Shown here: positions 833 to 8,074 of the stretch, one piece after another | Layout: each line of letters starts with the position of its first letter | Numbering within the stretch: the stretch's first letter is position 1 | Assembly (NCBI GenBank): GCA_905206195.1 | Contig: CAJLGN010000042.1 | Location: forward strand, 1-8,372 | DNA from: an uncultured Roseburia sp. | Lineage (GTDB): Bacteria > Bacillota > Clostridia > Lachnospirales > Lachnospiraceae | DNA: 8,372 nt | Reading direction: 5' to 3' | The notes under the pieces: generated by a model | Seen by the model: only the letters and a program-made list of their open reading frames with translations | What the model was told of the DNA's origin: nothing | Databases searched by the model: none | Translations under genes and position numbers: made by a program

Positions 833-1744
833 TTATTCAAACGGAATGACTGCGCCATCATAGGTGTCATTGATATACTGCTTGAGCGCATCGGATTTCA
901 GCGCGTCCACCAGCGCTTTCACCCCCTCGCTGTTCTCATTGCCCTCTTTTACCGCAATGACATTCACGTAGGTTTTCGCCGCCTCAGAGTCAGACTCCTC
1001 ATAGGCGATGGAATCGTTGGCAACCGAATATCCAGCCTCCAGCGCGTAGTTTCCATTCAGCACGACGTAGGATACCTCCGGGATGACACGCGGAACTTGT
1101 GCAGCCTCCAGCTCCTCGATCTTCACATTGTACGGATTCTCCTCAATATCGTTGACTGTCGCCTCCAGTCCAGCGCCCTCTTTCAGAGTAATGATGCCGT
1201 TATCCTGCAGAAGAAGAAGCGCCCGCGCCTCGTTTGTGGTATCGTTTGGCACTGCGATCACATCGCCCTCCGCAATCTCTGCCAGATCACTCTTCGTTCC
1301 CGGGTAGATGCCAAATGGCTCATAATGAATTCCTCCCGCATTGACTAAGTGTGTCCCTTTTTCCGCATTGAAGTTCTCGAGATATGGGATGTGCTGGAAA
1401 TAGTTCGCATCGAACTCCCCGCTCTCCACCACCTCGTTGGGCAGAATATAATCGTCAAACACCGTGACCTGAAGATCCCAGCCCTGCTCTGCAAGAATCG
1501 TCTTCGCCTGCTCTAAAATCTCCGCGTGAGGGGTGGCGGAAGCCGCCACCGTGATCTTGCCCTTCGATGCAGCTCCCCCGGCCGCAGCACCTACCTCAGT
1601 TCCTCCGGCAGCGCCTGCTGCATCCGCCGCGGCATTCGCACCGCTGTTTGCATTTGCCTCTTCTCCTGTGCCGCCGCATCCCACCAAAGCTGTCAATGCC
1701 AGCACTCCTGCTAAAATTCCTGTCAATACTCTCTTTTTCATCAT
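833..1744 (-). CDS. metQ: MetQ/NlpA-family substrate-binding lipoprotein of methionine ABC importer
   Basis: This 303-residue lipoprotein captures the substrate (D/L-methionine in characterised MetQ proteins) outside the membrane and delivers it to MetI. It starts with a classical lipoprotein signal: MMKKR, a hydrophobic stretch (about 6-21) and lipobox L-V-G-C with Cys23 as the predicted lipidated residue. Residues 24-60 form an unusually long Ala/Gly-rich tether. The NlpA domain begins near 61 (GKITVAASATPHAEIL) and shows family signatures: FDANYFQHIPYL (111-122), VPNDTTNEARALLLLQ (165-180) and the C-terminal VKALVDALKSDALKQYI. Two ATG codons are adjacent; the first lies 5 nt and the second 8 nt after a GAGGAG site, so either could be used. 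It is the last gene of the operon, 16 nt after metI, and is followed by a terminator. The exact substrate (methionine, its derivatives or another amino acid) cannot be read from sequence. Confidence 0.93.
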   Translation of the reverse strand: MMKKRVLTGILAGVLALTALVGCGGTGEEANANSGANAAADAAGAAGGTEVGAAAGGAASKGKITVAASATPHAEILEQAKTILAEQGWDLQVTVFDDYILPNEVVESGEFDANYFQHIPYLENFNAEKGTHLVNAGGIHYEPFGIYPGTKSDLAEIAEGDVIAVPNDTTNEARALLLLQDNGIITLKEGAGLEATVNDIEENPYNVKIEELEAAQVPRVIPEVSYVVLNGNYALEAGYSVANDSIAYEESDSEAAKTYVNVIAVKEGNENSEGVKALVDALKSDALKQYINDTYDGAVIPFE

Positions 1745-1760
1745 GTAATCTCCTCTTCTT

Positions 1761-2423
1761 TTATGATCTGCGTCTGTCCAGTCTGGATGCGATCCGCATT
1801 CCTATAGTCTGGAAGATCTGTACCAATATCACTAATAAAATGACCGTCACCATCATAATGTCCACCTCGTAGCGGTTGTAACCGTAGCGGATAGCGATCG
1901 CTCCAAGTCCGCCGCCGCCGACCGCCCCCGCCATAGCGGAGTAGCCAAGAATCGTACCGATGGCAATCGTACTTCCGACAATGAGAGATGTCCGGGCCTC
2001 CACCAAAAGTACCTTTGTGATGATCGTCCAACTCCCTGCCCCCATGGACCGTGCCGCCTCGATGACCCCGGCATCGACCTCCTTCAAGGAGGACTCCACC
2101 ATACGCGCAATAAATGGCGCCGCCGCCATGACGAGCGGCACGATCGTGGCTGTGGAGCCGTAGCTTTTCCCAATCAGCGCTCTCGTGAAAGGAATCAGCA
2201 GGATCAGCAGGATTAAAAATGGGATACTCCGCACAATATTCGCGACCACATCCAACGCCTTGTAGCAGACTTTATTGGGACGGATTCCCTCCTGATCTGT
2301 GACGGCGAGCAAAATTCCCATCGGAAGTCCAAAGGCGTATCCAAGGAGCGTGGAGCCCACCGTCATGTACACCGACTCCCAGATACCAATCAGAATCATA
2401 TCAATCACCGCTTCACTCCACAT
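1761..2423 (-). CDS. metI: MetI methionine ABC importer permease
   Basis: This 220-residue inner-membrane permease has the usual MetI length and five predicted membrane segments (about 9-29, 30-42, 57-80, 90-112 and 187-210, with re-entrant hydrophobic stretches between 145 and 180). The ABC-permease coupling motif EAARSMGAG (122-130) contacts the MetN ATPase. The glycine-rich GYSAMAGAVGGGGLGAIAIRYGY (160-182) is typical of MetI. The start ATG lies inside the end of metN: the genes overlap by 11 nt, and AGGAGGTGA within the metN tail serves as a strong ribosome binding site about 6 nt upstream, which implies coupled translation. Two MetI copies with two MetN copies form the transporter core. 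Confidence 0.95.
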   Translation of the reverse strand: MWSEAVIDMILIGIWESVYMTVGSTLLGYAFGLPMGILLAVTDQEGIRPNKVCYKALDVVANIVRSIPFLILLILLIPFTRALIGKSYGSTATIVPLVMAAAPFIARMVESSLKEVDAGVIEAARSMGAGSWTIITKVLLVEARTSLIVGSTIAIGTILGYSAMAGAVGGGGLGAIAIRYGYNRYEVDIMMVTVILLVILVQIFQTIGMRIASRLDRRRS

Positions 2424-3492
2424 CTTCTGTCACCTCCTCGATCTCAAGTCCCTTTTCTGCCAGATATTCCTGCATCTGCCGCTGAAGTTCTTTCTCTGCG
2501 GGCAGTCCCAGTATCATCTCTCCCTTGGCAAATCCCCCGACATTCTTGGTGTCCGCGCGCAGGATGTTCACCGGAGTCCCAAACTTGAGTACCATATTGC
2601 CGATGACCGGCTCAAAGGCAGAATTTTGAGAAAATACAATGCGAAGCTTTTTGTTTCCGGACAGGCGCTCCACCTGGCGATCCTCTCCCTGCCACCGCTC
2701 GGCTTCCCCGCTCTCCTCGACGCCCGGCTGACCTTCCCAGCTTCCCTCCGGACGATCCTTCAAGATCAACTCTCTCGCCGCCCGCGACTTCGGATGGTTG
2801 AAAATGTCCTCCACGAGTCCCTGCTCCGCCAGCTCGCCCTGCTCCACAATTGCCACATGTGTGCAGATCTCGCGGATGACTGACATCTGATGGGTGATGA
2901 TGACAATGGTGATGCCAAATTCCCGGTTGATTTGCCGCAGCAGCGCCAAAATCGTCGCCGTGGTCTGTGGATCAAGCGCGCTTGTCGCCTCGTCACAGAG
3001 CAGAATCCGCGGATCAGATGCCAGCGCTCTTGCTATGGCCACTCTCTGCTTCTGCCCGCCCGAGAGTTGTGACGGATAGGCCTTCGCTTTTTCCTCCAAC
3101 CCCACCGTATGCAAAAACTGATATGCTTTTTCCCTCGCTTCCTTTTTTCCAGTTCCCTGAATCAGCATCGGAAAGCACACATTATCGATAACATTTTTCT
3201 GCATCAGCAAGTTAAAATGCTGAAATATCATTGCAATATCACTTCGCTGTGTGCGCAGCTCCTTCTCCGTGAGACTTCCAAGCTCCTGACCTCCCACGAT
3301 GACCTCCCCCGCGGTCGGCCGTTCCAGGTAGTTTAGACAACGCACCAAAGTGCTCTTCCCCGCGCCGGACATTCCGATAATCCCGTAGATATCGCCCTCC
3401 TCGATCTTAAGTGAAATATCCTTCAGGGCGTCCACACGGCCGCCTTTCTGCTCGAACGTCTTATATAAATGCCGTACTTCGATTGCTGACAT
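2413..3492 (-). CDS. metN: MetN methionine ABC importer ATP-binding subunit with NIL domain
   Basis: This 359-residue ATPase energises the importer. All nucleotide-binding motifs are present: Walker A GMSGAGKST (40-48), Q-loop Gln91, signature LSGGQ (143-147), Walker B ILLCDEA (163-169, catalytic Glu168), D-loop SALD (171-174) and switch His201. The C-terminal region (about 280-355) matches the NIL domain that, in characterised MetN proteins, binds methionine and inhibits transport when the cell is replete (known for the family, not tested here). Between the two domains (about 245-278) is a charged Glu/Gly-rich linker. The start has AGGA about 7 nt upstream, and the gene is first in metN-metI-metQ. 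A consensus-like promoter and a LysR-type dyad lie upstream. No S-box riboswitch is present, although such leaders are common before methionine importers in Firmicutes. Confidence 0.96.
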   Translation of the reverse strand: MSAIEVRHLYKTFEQKGGRVDALKDISLKIEEGDIYGIIGMSGAGKSTLVRCLNYLERPTAGEVIVGGQELGSLTEKELRTQRSDIAMIFQHFNLLMQKNVIDNVCFPMLIQGTGKKEAREKAYQFLHTVGLEEKAKAYPSQLSGGQKQRVAIARALASDPRILLCDEATSALDPQTTATILALLRQINREFGITIVIITHQMSVIREICTHVAIVEQGELAEQGLVEDIFNHPKSRAARELILKDRPEGSWEGQPGVEESGEAERWQGEDRQVERLSGNKKLRIVFSQNSAFEPVIGNMVLKFGTPVNILRADTKNVGGFAKGEMILGLPAEKELQRQMQEYLAEKGLEIEEVTEDVE

Positions 3493-5927: not shown

Positions 5928-6515
5928 TTATACCTCCTCTCTGTGCTTAAGTTGGCAAATTCCCTGCGTCATCGTCCCCATCGGACAGTAGACACACCAG
6001 GAGCGCGGTTTAAAGAGAAGCATGGTGATAAGCCCGAGTACCGTGGATGTGAGCATCACACTGTAAAAGCCAAAGGCAAACTGCGCCGCCCACGGTGCGA
6101 CCGCATTTCCGCGGTACGCAAACTGCCACGGGAGCTTAAAGGTCCAAAGCAGCTTTACAACCTCTTTTAAGCCATTCGTTCCCACAAAGACCAGATAGGT
6201 AGAAAAAATCATATTGAGGAACATCGCCATAAAAAAGGTGAGGAAACCGTACCGAAACCACTTGGTCTTTAAAAACCCCGGGACGTCCTTATTTCTGGAT
6301 AATCCAAGCCTGCCCCCCAGCACCTCGAACAACTGCCCTCTCCCACAATACCGGTTGCAGTATGCCTTATTTCCCTTTACAATGGAAATCAAAAGCGGCA
6401 CGCAAAAGCAAATCAGCCCAAGCCACGCAAACAAAATATTAAAAAATCCAAGTGCCAAGTAGGTGGCAGAGACAACCCACAGGTAGTCATACCATCTTTT
6501 TTTCTTCTTATTCAT
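5928..6515 (-). CDS. Membrane 4Fe-4S binding protein, NapH-like (Fer4_5 type)
   Basis: This 195-residue membrane protein has about four predicted membrane helices (about 12-30, 31-47, 88-112 and 142-167). Two cysteine motifs lie just after helices 2 and 4: C53-NRY-C57-GRGQLFEVLG and W-C174-VY-C177-PMGTMTQGICQLK. This repeated helix pair plus Cys motif is the plan of NapH/YccM/NosR-type proteins, which pass electrons between the quinone pool or soluble carriers and cofactors. The protein is shorter than NapH and lacks its C-terminal soluble ferredoxin domain. That part seems to be supplied by the separate 65-residue ferredoxin encoded 24 nt upstream. The start has AAGGAG about 10 nt upstream. 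No oxidoreductase partner lies nearby. A maturation or electron-delivery role is inferred. Confidence 0.88.
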   Translation of the reverse strand: MNKKKKRWYDYLWVVSATYLALGFFNILFAWLGLICFCVPLLISIVKGNKAYCNRYCGRGQLFEVLGGRLGLSRNKDVPGFLKTKWFRYGFLTFFMAMFLNMIFSTYLVFVGTNGLKEVVKLLWTFKLPWQFAYRGNAVAPWAAQFAFGFYSVMLTSTVLGLITMLLFKPRSWCVYCPMGTMTQGICQLKHREEV

Positions 6516-6539: not shown

Positions 6540-6737
6540 TTATTCTGTCAGCTCTCGAACTGTGATCACAGACGCCGGACACGCCTTCACACAGATGCCA
6601 CAGCCCACACACAACTCTCCGGTCACCATGGCGTAGATTCCCTTCGGGACACCGATGGCCCCGCGCGGACACACCTTGCCACAGGTACCGCAGCCGACAC
6701 AGAATTTCCTGTCTACGAACGCTCTTCTTTTTTGCAT
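6540..6737 (-). CDS. 2[4Fe-4S] ferredoxin-type protein
   Basis: This 65-residue small electron carrier has two complete cluster motifs: C13-x2-C16-x2-C19-x3-C23-P and C43-x2-C46-x2-C49-x3-C53-P, which bind two 4Fe-4S clusters in cross-over fashion as in clostridial ferredoxins. I chose ATG 6735-6737 over an upstream in-frame ATG at 6807-6809 because AAGGAG lies 5 nt before it, the extra residues look non-coding, and the longer form would start upstream of the predicted promoter -10. It precedes the NapH-like membrane gene by 24 nt and probably forms an operon with it. It diverges from the Crp/Fnr regulator across a 155-bp gap that holds a Crp-type site at the activation position of its promoter. 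Confidence 0.9.
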   Translation of the reverse strand: MQKRRAFVDRKFCVGCGTCGKVCPRGAIGVPKGIYAMVTGELCVGCGICVKACPASVITVRELTE

Positions 6738-6768: not shown

Positions 6769-6774
6769 ATTATA
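6769..6774 (-). promoter_or_regulatory. -10 element of the ferredoxin operon promoter
   Basis: A perfect TATAAT on the minus strand gives a predicted start near 6762, about 25 nt before the ferredoxin ATG. The hexamer 17 bp upstream (CAGTCC) matches the -35 consensus at only 2 of 6 positions, as expected for a promoter that needs an activator. Confidence 0.6.
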
Positions 6775-6794: not shown

Positions 6795-6811
6795 CTGTAA
6801 CCAACTCACAC
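6795..6811. promoter_or_regulatory. Candidate Crp/Fnr operator TGTGA-N5-TTACA before the ferredoxin
   Basis: On the minus strand TGTGA-GTTGG-TTACA (6796-6810) forms a near-perfect dyad. Its centre (6803) is 29 bp from the ferredoxin -10 edge, about -41 from the predicted start, overlapping the place of the missing -35. It is about 62 bp before the predicted start of the divergent regulator gene. On the plus strand it shares 12 of 16 bases with the site before trxA (CTGTAA... versus CTGTGA..., both ending TCACA). Confidence 0.55.
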
Positions 6812-6829
6812 AAACGTTTCCATTTTCCC

Positions 6830-6858
6830 TTGCTATCCGGCATATTTGCCTGTATCAT
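6830..6858 (+). promoter_or_regulatory. Predicted promoter of the Crp/Fnr regulator gene
   Basis: TTGCTA (6830-6835) and TATCAT (6853-6858, 5/6) are separated by 17 bp, giving a predicted start near 6865. The -10 lies in a direct repeat TATCATAAA (6853-6861 and 6864-6872) spaced 11 bp apart. Confidence 0.5.
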
Positions 6859-6892
6859 AAAGCTATCATAAAAATAAAAGGAGTTATATGCT

Positions 6893-7567
6893 ATGTTAAA
6901 CCAGGAGGATTTGTCCACACTCCGCGAAAATCTGGCATTTTGGGAACAACTCAGCCCCGCGCAGAGAGAGCTGCTCACCGCAAGCACAAAGCGCGCCCAT
7001 TTCTCAAAAGGGCAGGCATTGCACTGCGGTGAGAACGACTGCATCGGTGTCCTGCTCGTCAAAAGCGGCAGCATTCGCGCATACATCACCTCAGACGAGG
7101 GCAGAGAGGTCACCTTGTACCGTCTGGAATCCGGTGATATCTGCATCCTCTCCGCCTCCTGTGTGATGCAAAGCATTGATTTTGATGTCTCGGTCGACGC
7201 CGAGACGGACTGCGAGGTTCTCCAGATCTCCTCGATGGGATTTTCACGCCTCGCCTCTGAAAATATCTATGTGGAGCTTTTTTCTTATAAGATGACTGCA
7301 GAGCGTTTCTCGGACGTTATGTGGGCGATGCAACAACTTCTTTTCACCAGCTTCGACAAGCGTCTCGCGTCGTTCTTGCTGGACGAGTGCGCAAAAAGTG
7401 GCGGTGATACGCTCCACATAACCCACGAGCAGATCGCACGATATCTCGGCTCCGCCAGGGAGGTAGTCTCCCGGATGCTCAATTATTTTTCGAAGGAAGG
7501 GTACGTGTCGCTCTCCCGGGGTACAATCACCCTCCTCGACCGAAAGGGACTGCGCAAGGTCCTCTAG
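6893..7567 (+). CDS. Crp/Fnr-family transcriptional regulator
   Basis: This 224-residue protein has the standard Crp/Fnr layout: an N-terminal cyclic-nucleotide-binding-type beta-roll (about 15-120), a long dimerisation helix (about 124-152) and a C-terminal winged helix (about 155-220). The recognition helix reads G-S-A-R189-E190-V-V-S-R194-M-L, the same R-E-x-x-x-R spacing with which E. coli Crp contacts TGTGA half-sites; the matching sites are present in this window. There are six cysteines (45, 50, 84, 90, 107, 166), but no FNR-type N-terminal cluster C-x2-C-x5-C and no clear cAMP-binding signature, so the signal is unknown. The start has AGGAG about 9 nt upstream; an ATG 5 nt earlier is closer to it but reads only Met-Leu-Cys-stop. 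It diverges from the ferredoxin operon and converges on trxA. Redox sensing is inferred from the neighbours. Confidence 0.95.
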   Translation: MLNQEDLSTLRENLAFWEQLSPAQRELLTASTKRAHFSKGQALHCGENDCIGVLLVKSGSIRAYITSDEGREVTLYRLESGDICILSASCVMQSIDFDVSVDAETDCEVLQISSMGFSRLASENIYVELFSYKMTAERFSDVMWAMQQLLFTSFDKRLASFLLDECAKSGGDTLHITHEQIARYLGSAREVVSRMLNYFSKEGYVSLSRGTITLLDRKGLRKVL

Positions 7568-7587
7568 AGCATCAAAACCCAAAATGA

Positions 7588-7646
7588 AAAAAGAGGATGT
7601 CTGAAAGGTAAGCTCTTCCTCGATACCTTCCGGACATCCTCTTTTT
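7588..7646. terminator. Bidirectional rho-independent terminator between regulator gene and trxA
   Basis: A very long stem: AAAAAGAGGATGTC (7588-7601) pairs perfectly with 7633-7646 and AAGGTA (7605-7610) with TACCTT (7624-7629). One mismatch and one G-U pair lie between the two blocks, and the loop is 13 nt. It is flanked by an A-run on the left and a T-run on the right, so it works on both strands, as expected between convergent genes. Confidence 0.92.
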
Positions 7647-7677
7647 GCAAGACAATATCTACGCTGTCATTGCCTCG

Positions 7678-7989
7678 TTATACTTCCAACATCTTTAATA
7701 TCTCTGCCTTGGACTTTACACCGACAGAGTTTGATACTACCTGACCATCCTTCACGACCATGAGCGTCGGGATTGTCATGATCTTGTACTGCGCCGCGAG
7801 CTCCGGCTCGTCGTCCACGTTAATCTTGCAGATCTTGGCATCGGTCACCTCGCCCGCCAGCTCCTCCACAACCGGGAGAAGCATCTGGCACGGTCCGCAC
7901 CATGTTGCCCAGAAATCCACCAGTACCGGCTTGTCTGATTTTAATACTTCGCTCTCAAAATTGTCCTTTGTAATGTGTAATGCTGCCAT
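7678..7989 (-). CDS. trxA: Thioredoxin
   Basis: This 103-residue cytoplasmic thiol-disulfide reductant has the typical thioredoxin length. The active site is WCGPC (30-34) with redox cysteines 31 and 34; the buried Asp25 (VDFWA) and the cis-proline motif TIPT (Pro74) are present. The tail VKDGQVVSNSVGVKSKAEILKML matches the family, although the usual G-x3 loop residues are slightly altered (SNSVGVKSK). AAGGAG lies 7 nt before the ATG. No thioredoxin reductase gene lies next to it within the window. It stands alone after a promoter with an activator-like Crp/Fnr site and ends at a terminator shared with the regulator gene, which suggests control by that regulator. Confidence 0.97.
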   Translation of the reverse strand: MAALHITKDNFESEVLKSDKPVLVDFWATWCGPCQMLLPVVEELAGEVTDAKICKINVDDEPELAAQYKIMTIPTLMVVKDGQVVSNSVGVKSKAEILKMLEV

Positions 7990-8032
7990 ATCTTTTCTCC
8001 TTTTCGGTTTGCTGTTTTATTCTCTGAATGTT

Positions 8033-8038
8033 ATTTTA
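8033..8038 (-). promoter_or_regulatory. -10 element of the trxA promoter
   Basis: TAAAAT on the minus strand (5/6) has a predicted start near 8026, about 36 nt before the trxA ATG. The hexamer 17 bp upstream (ACAGAT) matches the -35 consensus at no position, again suggesting activator dependence. Confidence 0.5.
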
Positions 8039-8057
8039 CCCATTTTTTTGTTTTTAT

Positions 8058-8074
8058 CTGTGAGCAGATCACAG
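8058..8074. promoter_or_regulatory. Candidate Crp/Fnr operator CTGTGA-N5-TCACAG before trxA
   Basis: A perfect palindrome with 6-bp arms (8058-8063 and 8069-8074) and a 5-bp centre; the core is TGTGA-N5-TCACA. Its centre (8066) is 28 bp from the -10 edge, about -40 from the predicted start. It lacks a following T-run on either strand, so a terminator reading is unlikely. It has the same form and position as the site before the ferredoxin. Confidence 0.6.

Follow-up and report, generated by a model that had tools for sequence, protein, structure and literature searches.

A Crp/Fnr-family protein as the predicted class II activator of ferredoxin and thioredoxin genes through a TGTRA-N5-TYACA operator in Clostridia

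The window analyzed here, an 8,372-nucleotide stretch of DNA from an uncultured Roseburia sp., contains two matched palindromes with half-sites five base pairs apart. They flank the gene of a Crp/Fnr-family protein that probably binds both and is a predicted class II activator of a ferredoxin gene and of the thioredoxin gene trxA. Upstream sequences aligned across Clostridia show conservation of the site, of the 5-bp gap and of the spacing to the predicted -10 hexamer. An earlier sequence-only reading of this DNA had arrived at the same interpretation, which is supported by our results and was right in its core. If the proposed regulation is true, anaerobic gut bacteria and acetogens would possess a transcriptional system dedicated to the repair of thiols and sulfane sulfur.

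Paired operators in the window and their conservation

The regulator gene (6893..7567, plus strand) encodes a protein of 224 amino acids, and the predicted targets on both of its sides are located on the minus strand. On one side, a gene for a 2x[4Fe-4S] ferredoxin-like protein (6540..6737, minus strand; Pfam Fer4_9/Fer4), the start of which we set at the ATG at 6737, likely forms one transcript with a gene encoding a NapH-like membrane protein with a Fer4_5 domain (5928..6515, minus strand; Pfam Fer4_5). On the other side, trxA (7678..7989, minus strand) encodes a thioredoxin with the WCGPC motif that scores above the cut-off of TIGR01068. The regulator gene and trxA are convergent, and an inverted repeat in the gap that separates them (7580-7650) resembles by eye a shared two-way terminator. 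Elsewhere in the window, the genes at 833-3492 were judged by eye from their translations to encode an ABC transporter of the methionine type, with its permease, ATPase and substrate lipoprotein; a weak matrix match there (score 12.1, 1816-1835), located before the lipoprotein gene and within the permease frame, is probably due to chance.

The pattern TGTRANNNNNTYACA (TGTRA-N5-TYACA) matches the window at two places only, which are the two palindromes reported earlier, and 200 dinucleotide shuffles of the window yielded a mean of 0.04 matches and reached two in none of the 200 rounds. The putative operator of the ferredoxin promoter (6796..6810, minus strand) reads TGTGA-GTTGG-TTACA toward ferredoxin and TGTAA-N5-TCACA on the plus strand, with a matrix score of 15.8; that of the trxA promoter (8059..8073, minus strand) reads TGTGA-TCTGC-TCACA and scores 21.7. 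Compared to the wider consensus TGTRAY-N3-RTYACA, each has one inner base that does not fit (G for Y in the ferredoxin site, C for R in the trxA site), and consequently both are missed by the stricter pattern applied in the genome scans.

A search of genome contigs for the regulator returned 156 places. We used the best 80 loci of these 156, which are 51-74% identical and come from Lachnospiraceae, Clostridioides, Acetobacterium, Agathobaculum, Anaerotignum, Christensenella and others. Among these best 80 of 156, a trx gene is convergent with the regulator gene and no more than 400 bp behind it at 29 loci, and NapH-like and ferredoxin genes were both found at 12. With the window left out, genes were assigned by the best tblastn match per locus, and the 200 bases before each gene were searched at loci with at least 150 upstream bases (53 for trx, 14 for ferredoxin, 79 for the regulator and 13 for NapH-like genes). 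Before trx, N5 sites were present exactly in 13 of the 53 regions, in 32 at up to one mismatch and in 48 at up to two, compared to 0, 0.4 and 4.1 in dinucleotide shuffles; before ferredoxin, the corresponding counts among 14 regions were 5, 13 and 13, compared to 0, 0.4 and 1.7. The palindrome, whose conservation before orthologous genes the sequence-only reading had set as a test, is thus kept before both. NapH-like genes lacked an N5 site at up to two mismatches in all 13 regions. Spacings of N2, N4, N6 and N8 showed no excess over shuffles before trx or ferredoxin. N3 and N7 were raised before trx at two mismatches (8/53 and 28/53), as would be the pattern expected of register-shifted matches to N5 sites, and N3 and N9 were slightly raised before ferredoxin (2/14 each at one mismatch). 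For C. difficile, it has been suggested that trxA1B1 and trxA2 share a regulator, as yet uncharacterized (PMC10880999); the present scans did not find an N5 site at the trx genes of this species.

The suggestion that the regulator might also control its own gene fared differently. At up to one mismatch, an N5 site precedes 5 of the 79 regulator genes (shuffles, 0.6), and at each of these five loci (L034, L041, L046, L050 and L056) it belongs to a ferredoxin or trx gene that is transcribed divergently. Autoregulation via the ferredoxin-side site was rejected as a general feature, as its conservation is lacking.

Promoter geometry and mode of action

On the ferredoxin side of the window, a perfect TATAAT, the predicted -10 (6769..6774, minus strand), begins 36 bases past the first T of the site. 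On the trxA side, the predicted -10 TAAAAT (8033..8038, minus strand) begins 35 bases past it. The distance from the dyad center to the -10 is therefore 29 bp for ferredoxin and 28 bp for trxA, which places the operators at about -41 and -40, within one base of the earlier estimate. Both promoters had also been described as devoid of a -35 element, and by eye no hexamer located 16-17 bp before either -10 has more than three of six matches to TTGACA.

To compare these promoters with their relatives, we aligned 133 distinct sites with a matrix score of at least 19 in loci L001-L196 or at least 15 in the window, each taken in its better-scoring orientation and with 75 downstream bases required. 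A hexamer with at least five of six matches to TATAAT begins 36 bases after the first T of TGTGA in 69 of the 133 sites, as for ferredoxin, and 35 bases after it in 33, as for trxA, so that a total of 102 sites have a predicted -10 positioned 28-29 bp past the dyad center. When the downstream bases were shuffled over 500 rounds, the mean was 5.8 of 133 and the maximum 14. The matrix does not span the -10, which makes this test independent of it. No hexamer 17 bp upstream of the -10 in the same 102 sites has more than three matches to TTGACA. The class II layout attributed to the two window promoters, with a center near -41, a predicted -10 and no good -35, is thereby borne out well beyond the window.

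Most of the sites from which the matrix was built fall inside the 133, and base counts within the site were hence taken from the 60 distinct, less selected seed sites, the two window sites among them, whose consensus toward the target is T-n-TGTGAYYnRRTYACAGAA. In 59 of the 60 seeds, a G immediately follows the downstream half-site, whereas its upstream mirror is C in only 8. The following base is A in 53, and since its mirror is T in 45, this outer A is perhaps just part of the palindrome. Both window sites carry the outer G, as GA at trxA and GT at ferredoxin. A 16-17 bp spacer would put this G on the third base of the -35 (TTGACA). As the mirror base of the G is not conserved and the G falls on that position, the most fitting reading of the asymmetric motif is an operator that takes in a portion of the -35.

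We propose that a dimer of the regulator would bind the 15-bp sequence TGTRA-N5-TYACA, 28-29 bp upstream of a TATAAT-like hexamer, and that from this class II position (about -41) the bound protein would touch RNA polymerase and compensate for the poor -35. The same operator could conversely serve repression, with the Crp/Fnr protein covering the -35 region, which the site does overlap, and blocking RNA polymerase until released by a redox signal. We regard repression as unlikely: a repressor has no need of a fixed helical phase, yet 102 of the 133 sites occupy two adjacent offsets, and the low similarity to TTGACA in those 102 sites is a usual mark of activator dependence.

Operator spacing, predicted regulon and co-occurrence with the regulator

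The spacing of five had been contrasted earlier with N6 for Crp and N4 for Fnr. In the portion of PMC1274295 available to us, the consensus sequences of Crp-like, Fnr-like and HcpR sites are TGTGA-N6-TCACA, TTGAC-N4-GTCAA, TTGAT-N4-ATCAA and GTAAC-N4-GTTAC, all with six bases from the inner A to the T (A-N6-T). The N4 of Fnr thus reflects only a difference in register, while the other half of the claim holds: the A-N5-T core of the present site is, at 5 bp, shorter than these published cores.

The spacing was also assessed in 56 genomes picked for carrying the regulator; the window's own genome lies outside this set. The N5 pattern TGTGAYNNNRTYACRGA had 76 matches in 40 genomes compared to 7 for the backwards pattern, and the looser TGTRAY form had 41 compared to 7 in the 16 other genomes. 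In 39 of the 56 genomes, an N6 pattern had 36 matches compared to 4 backwards, thus exceeding its control too, and an N4 pattern had 16 compared to 6. Context separates N5 from N6 genome-wide: only 12 of 104 N5 sites are located within frames of at least 150 aa and 67 have a -10 at the right distance, whereas 24 of 35 N6 sites (from the 39 genomes) are located within such frames and none of the 35 has a -10 in place. The association of the motif with promoters, another check named in the sequence-only reading, is confirmed by this comparison. A single N6 match precedes a CoA-disulfide reductase-like gene (L303). We also observed that part of the N6 excess comes from one coding stretch (TGTGACGGATATCAC) recurring in several genomes (L279, L281, L292 and L293). 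With N5, and not N6, strongly enriched before trx and ferredoxin, the sites do not conform to the Crp-type operator TGTGA-N6-TCACA. Chance palindromes were ruled out as an explanation by the shuffles, the upstream conservation, the placement of the -10 and the differing contexts of N5 and N6.

In the 56 regulator-bearing genomes, we counted 115 distinct pattern sites, with identical contexts counted once, and named each target family by one or a few members of its cluster. The sites precede trxA (28), rhodanese or CoA-disulfide reductase genes (24), Fe-S/NapH-like genes (13), ccdA (7), rpmE (4), a family of 64-66 aa proteins (3), C_GCAxxG genes (3), DUF6132 (2) and ABC transporter genes (2, in two genomes); the 29 remaining sites are single cases that include trxB, peroxiredoxin, glutaredoxin and a response regulator. 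At L003, the CoA-disulfide reductase is a single chain of 833 aa that also carries rhodanese, TusA and DsrE2 domains. Further sites precede genes for desulfoferrodoxin (L062), rubredoxin proteins (L207, L252), rhodanese proteins (L203, L249) and a sulfur-transport protein (L235). Sites without a redox link include those before rpmE in four related genomes, those before the ABC transporter genes in two, and the 12 of the 29 single sites that are located within frames of more than 150 aa. In the four related genomes with an rpmE site (L086, L122, L161 and L187), this site is an exact N5 match 67-68 bp upstream of the gene, which encodes ribosomal protein L31; it either marks a genuine target or is a coincidence passed on by descent. 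The 64-66 aa proteins, with SARF near their start, recur behind N5 sites at L100, L163, L192 and L219; the L163 member has no Pfam or NCBIfam match.

The pattern sites cluster at thiol and sulfur genes, and the predicted regulon is wider than the local redox regulon proposed earlier. The ferredoxin and trx sites of that proposal are conserved, but its restriction to the locus did not hold, as sites precede rhodanese, CoA-disulfide reductase, ccdA and trxB genes elsewhere. The regulator would accordingly switch on a genome-wide thiol and sulfane-sulfur set that we propose to comprise thioredoxin, thioredoxin reductase, CcdA, rhodaneses, a CoA-disulfide reductase-rhodanese-TusA-DsrE2 protein and the ferredoxin/NapH-like pair.

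Sites and regulator co-occur. In a class set of 391 genomes, of which 23 with weak homologs (5 of them with a site) were set aside, a pattern site was found in 43 of 67 genomes with a strong homolog compared to 67 of 301 without a close homolog (Fisher p ~1e-10, uncorrected for kinship), and 162 matches in the forward direction compare to 57 backwards across all 391. This pattern, too strict to match either of the sites in the window, is absent from 24 of the 67 regulator-bearing genomes; L005 has a trx site that departs from it at the base at which the window's trxA site does. In the strong-homolog genomes, 29 of 64 sites, from 26 genomes, are located within 6 kb of the regulator gene (overlapping two-strand matches merged). 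In one family of 60 genomes, a site is present in 22 of 26 with a homolog (E<=1e-30) and in 14 of 34 without, again uncorrected for kinship, with 51 and 21 sites, respectively. Among inspected sites of this family, mostly one per genome, 9 of 10 without a homolog are located within frames of more than 150 aa compared to 6 of 21 with one; the tenth site of the former group is a proper trx promoter. Across the genomes of the class without a close homolog, 11 of 15 inspected sites are within such frames. The three sites inspected in weak-homolog genomes precede ccdA, rhodanese and NapH-like genes.

The sites could also be genuine operators of thiol genes read by another regulator, the Crp/Fnr gene being a mere neighbor. 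In favor of such a reader, N5 sites precede redox genes in some genomes that lack a close homolog: in G181, G281, G361 and G499 (L241, L243, L242 and L244, respectively), where no homolog was found at E up to 1e-30, the site precedes a CoA-disulfide reductase gene, although only one of the four has a -10 with five of six matches in place. These sites make it possible that a different protein is the reader there, and another, perhaps more distant, Crp/Fnr protein may recognize the same operator in the genomes without a close homolog. For the operator as a whole, however, a reader other than the adjacent Crp/Fnr protein is improbable, slightly more so than repression, given the co-occurrence of sites and regulator, their adjacency and half-sites that are those expected of an R-E recognition helix (PMC1274295, available portion).

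The regulator protein, its possible signal and known systems

The window protein belongs to the Crp/Fnr superfamily (PF00027, 38.8 bits, cut-off 27.5; PF13545, 68.6 bits, cut-off 27; PF00325, 35.9 bits, cut-off 21), and its match to the Crp family NF008732, at 59.9 bits, is far under the cut-off of 266. It is identical (100%, rounded) to a protein from a Roseburia MAG (P0002). Its closest solved relative is 3dv8 (E 3.5e-62), which also ranks first by fold, with 48% identity. The AlphaFold model has a mean pLDDT of 84.7 and a pTM of 0.61, with residues 90-94, below 50, as the least certain part; the predicted structure and its comparison with PDB entries confirm the family. As noted from the sequence earlier, the protein encoded between the two sites has an R-E-x-x-x-R recognition helix (R189-E190-V-V-S-R194), in which R189-E190 is kept in 81 of 81 regulators and R194 in 79 of 81, and this helix fits TGTGA-type half-sites.

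C50, C84 and C90 of the sensor domain are present in all 81 regulators; H44 is present in 74. The oxygen sensor FNR binds a [4Fe-4S] cluster through an N-terminal cysteine cluster; FNR-type sensing was rejected, as the window protein has no cysteine before residue 45 and thus no such N-terminal cluster. The CO sensor CooA uses Cys75 and His77 as haem ligands; these positions correspond to Ile85 and Ser87 of the window protein in an alignment to 1ft9, and CooA-type sensing was rejected likewise. The three invariant cysteines are simply compatible with a persulfide or thiol sensor role. A thiol or persulfide signal appears to be the likeliest input, with less certainty than the binding and activation proposed above, and the three cysteines might then read an oxidized-thiol or persulfide state. 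More tentatively still, the protein could represent a widespread clostridial Crp/Fnr subfamily with a 1-bp-shorter operator merged with the -35 G, which senses persulfides or disulfides via the three cysteines and jointly switches on thioredoxin, rhodanese, CoA-persulfide reductase and ferredoxin; this full combination is conceivable, though we lean against it.

HcpR controls hcp and a ferredoxin-like gene in response to NO and, in C. difficile, activates frdX-hcp when NO is present (PMC12915319). That the present regulator is HcpR is very improbable and was rejected on hcp context, operator spacing and the specificity residue, despite the shared superfamily, the ferredoxin-like target, the presence of the regulator in Clostridioides and, in G001, its distance of only about 7 kb from an hcp gene. 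None of 18 hcp loci (fetched from 23 PF03063 matches, with flanks of up to 1.5 kb), including that of G001 (L267), has an N5 site at a matrix score of at least 13. Of 18 regulator-bearing genomes, 12 contain a PF03063 match and the other 6, whose assemblies are possibly incomplete, yielded none. According to PMC1274295, the cores of known HcpR and HcpR2 sites are A-N6-T, and the residue that is Glu in all 81 of the present regulators is Ser in HcpR2 of C. difficile. The two systems nevertheless share a clostridial Crp/Fnr protein, a ferredoxin-like target and an activator role, the last two predicted here (Rodionov 2005, PMC1274295; Kalra 2026, PMC12915319), and they differ in the absence of the site from the 18 hcp loci, in spacing and in the second specificity position, which is Glu here and Ser or Pro in clostridial HcpR2 (PMC1274295).

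In the openly licensed literature, searched partly at the level of titles and the starts of abstracts, we found no description of this regulon, of its motif, of a link between Crp/Fnr proteins and persulfides or rhodanese, or of N5 half-site spacing; the accessible part of PMC11481553 mentions neither Crp nor Fnr. The function-unassigned structure 3dv8, a Crp/Fnr protein of Eubacterium rectale, has cysteines at the equivalents of C50, C84 and C90 and the R-E-x3-R motif, and differs in the residue that precedes R-E, which is H instead of A (H-R-E-V-I-T-R).

E. coli Crp and other regulators of TGTGA-N6-TCACA sites share with the present system the TGTGA/TCACA half-sites and the R-E-x3-R helix, and Crp-type class II sites are placed near -41, as here. 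Unlike in E. coli Crp, the half-sites are 5 and not 6 bp apart, and the predicted targets are thiol and sulfur genes. This raises the structural question of how a Crp-type dimer would sit on half-sites that are one base pair, or about 34 degrees of helix, closer. In their targets, the nearest counterparts are the persulfide-responsive regulators CstR, FisR and SqrR, which control thiol/disulfide or sulfane-sulfur genes, e.g., those for rhodanese and CoA-disulfide reductase; the MarR-type BmoR of Bacteroides fragilis reportedly controls genes of this kind as well (PMC6158253). All four belong to other protein families, and for the present Crp/Fnr protein a sulfur signal is a prediction.
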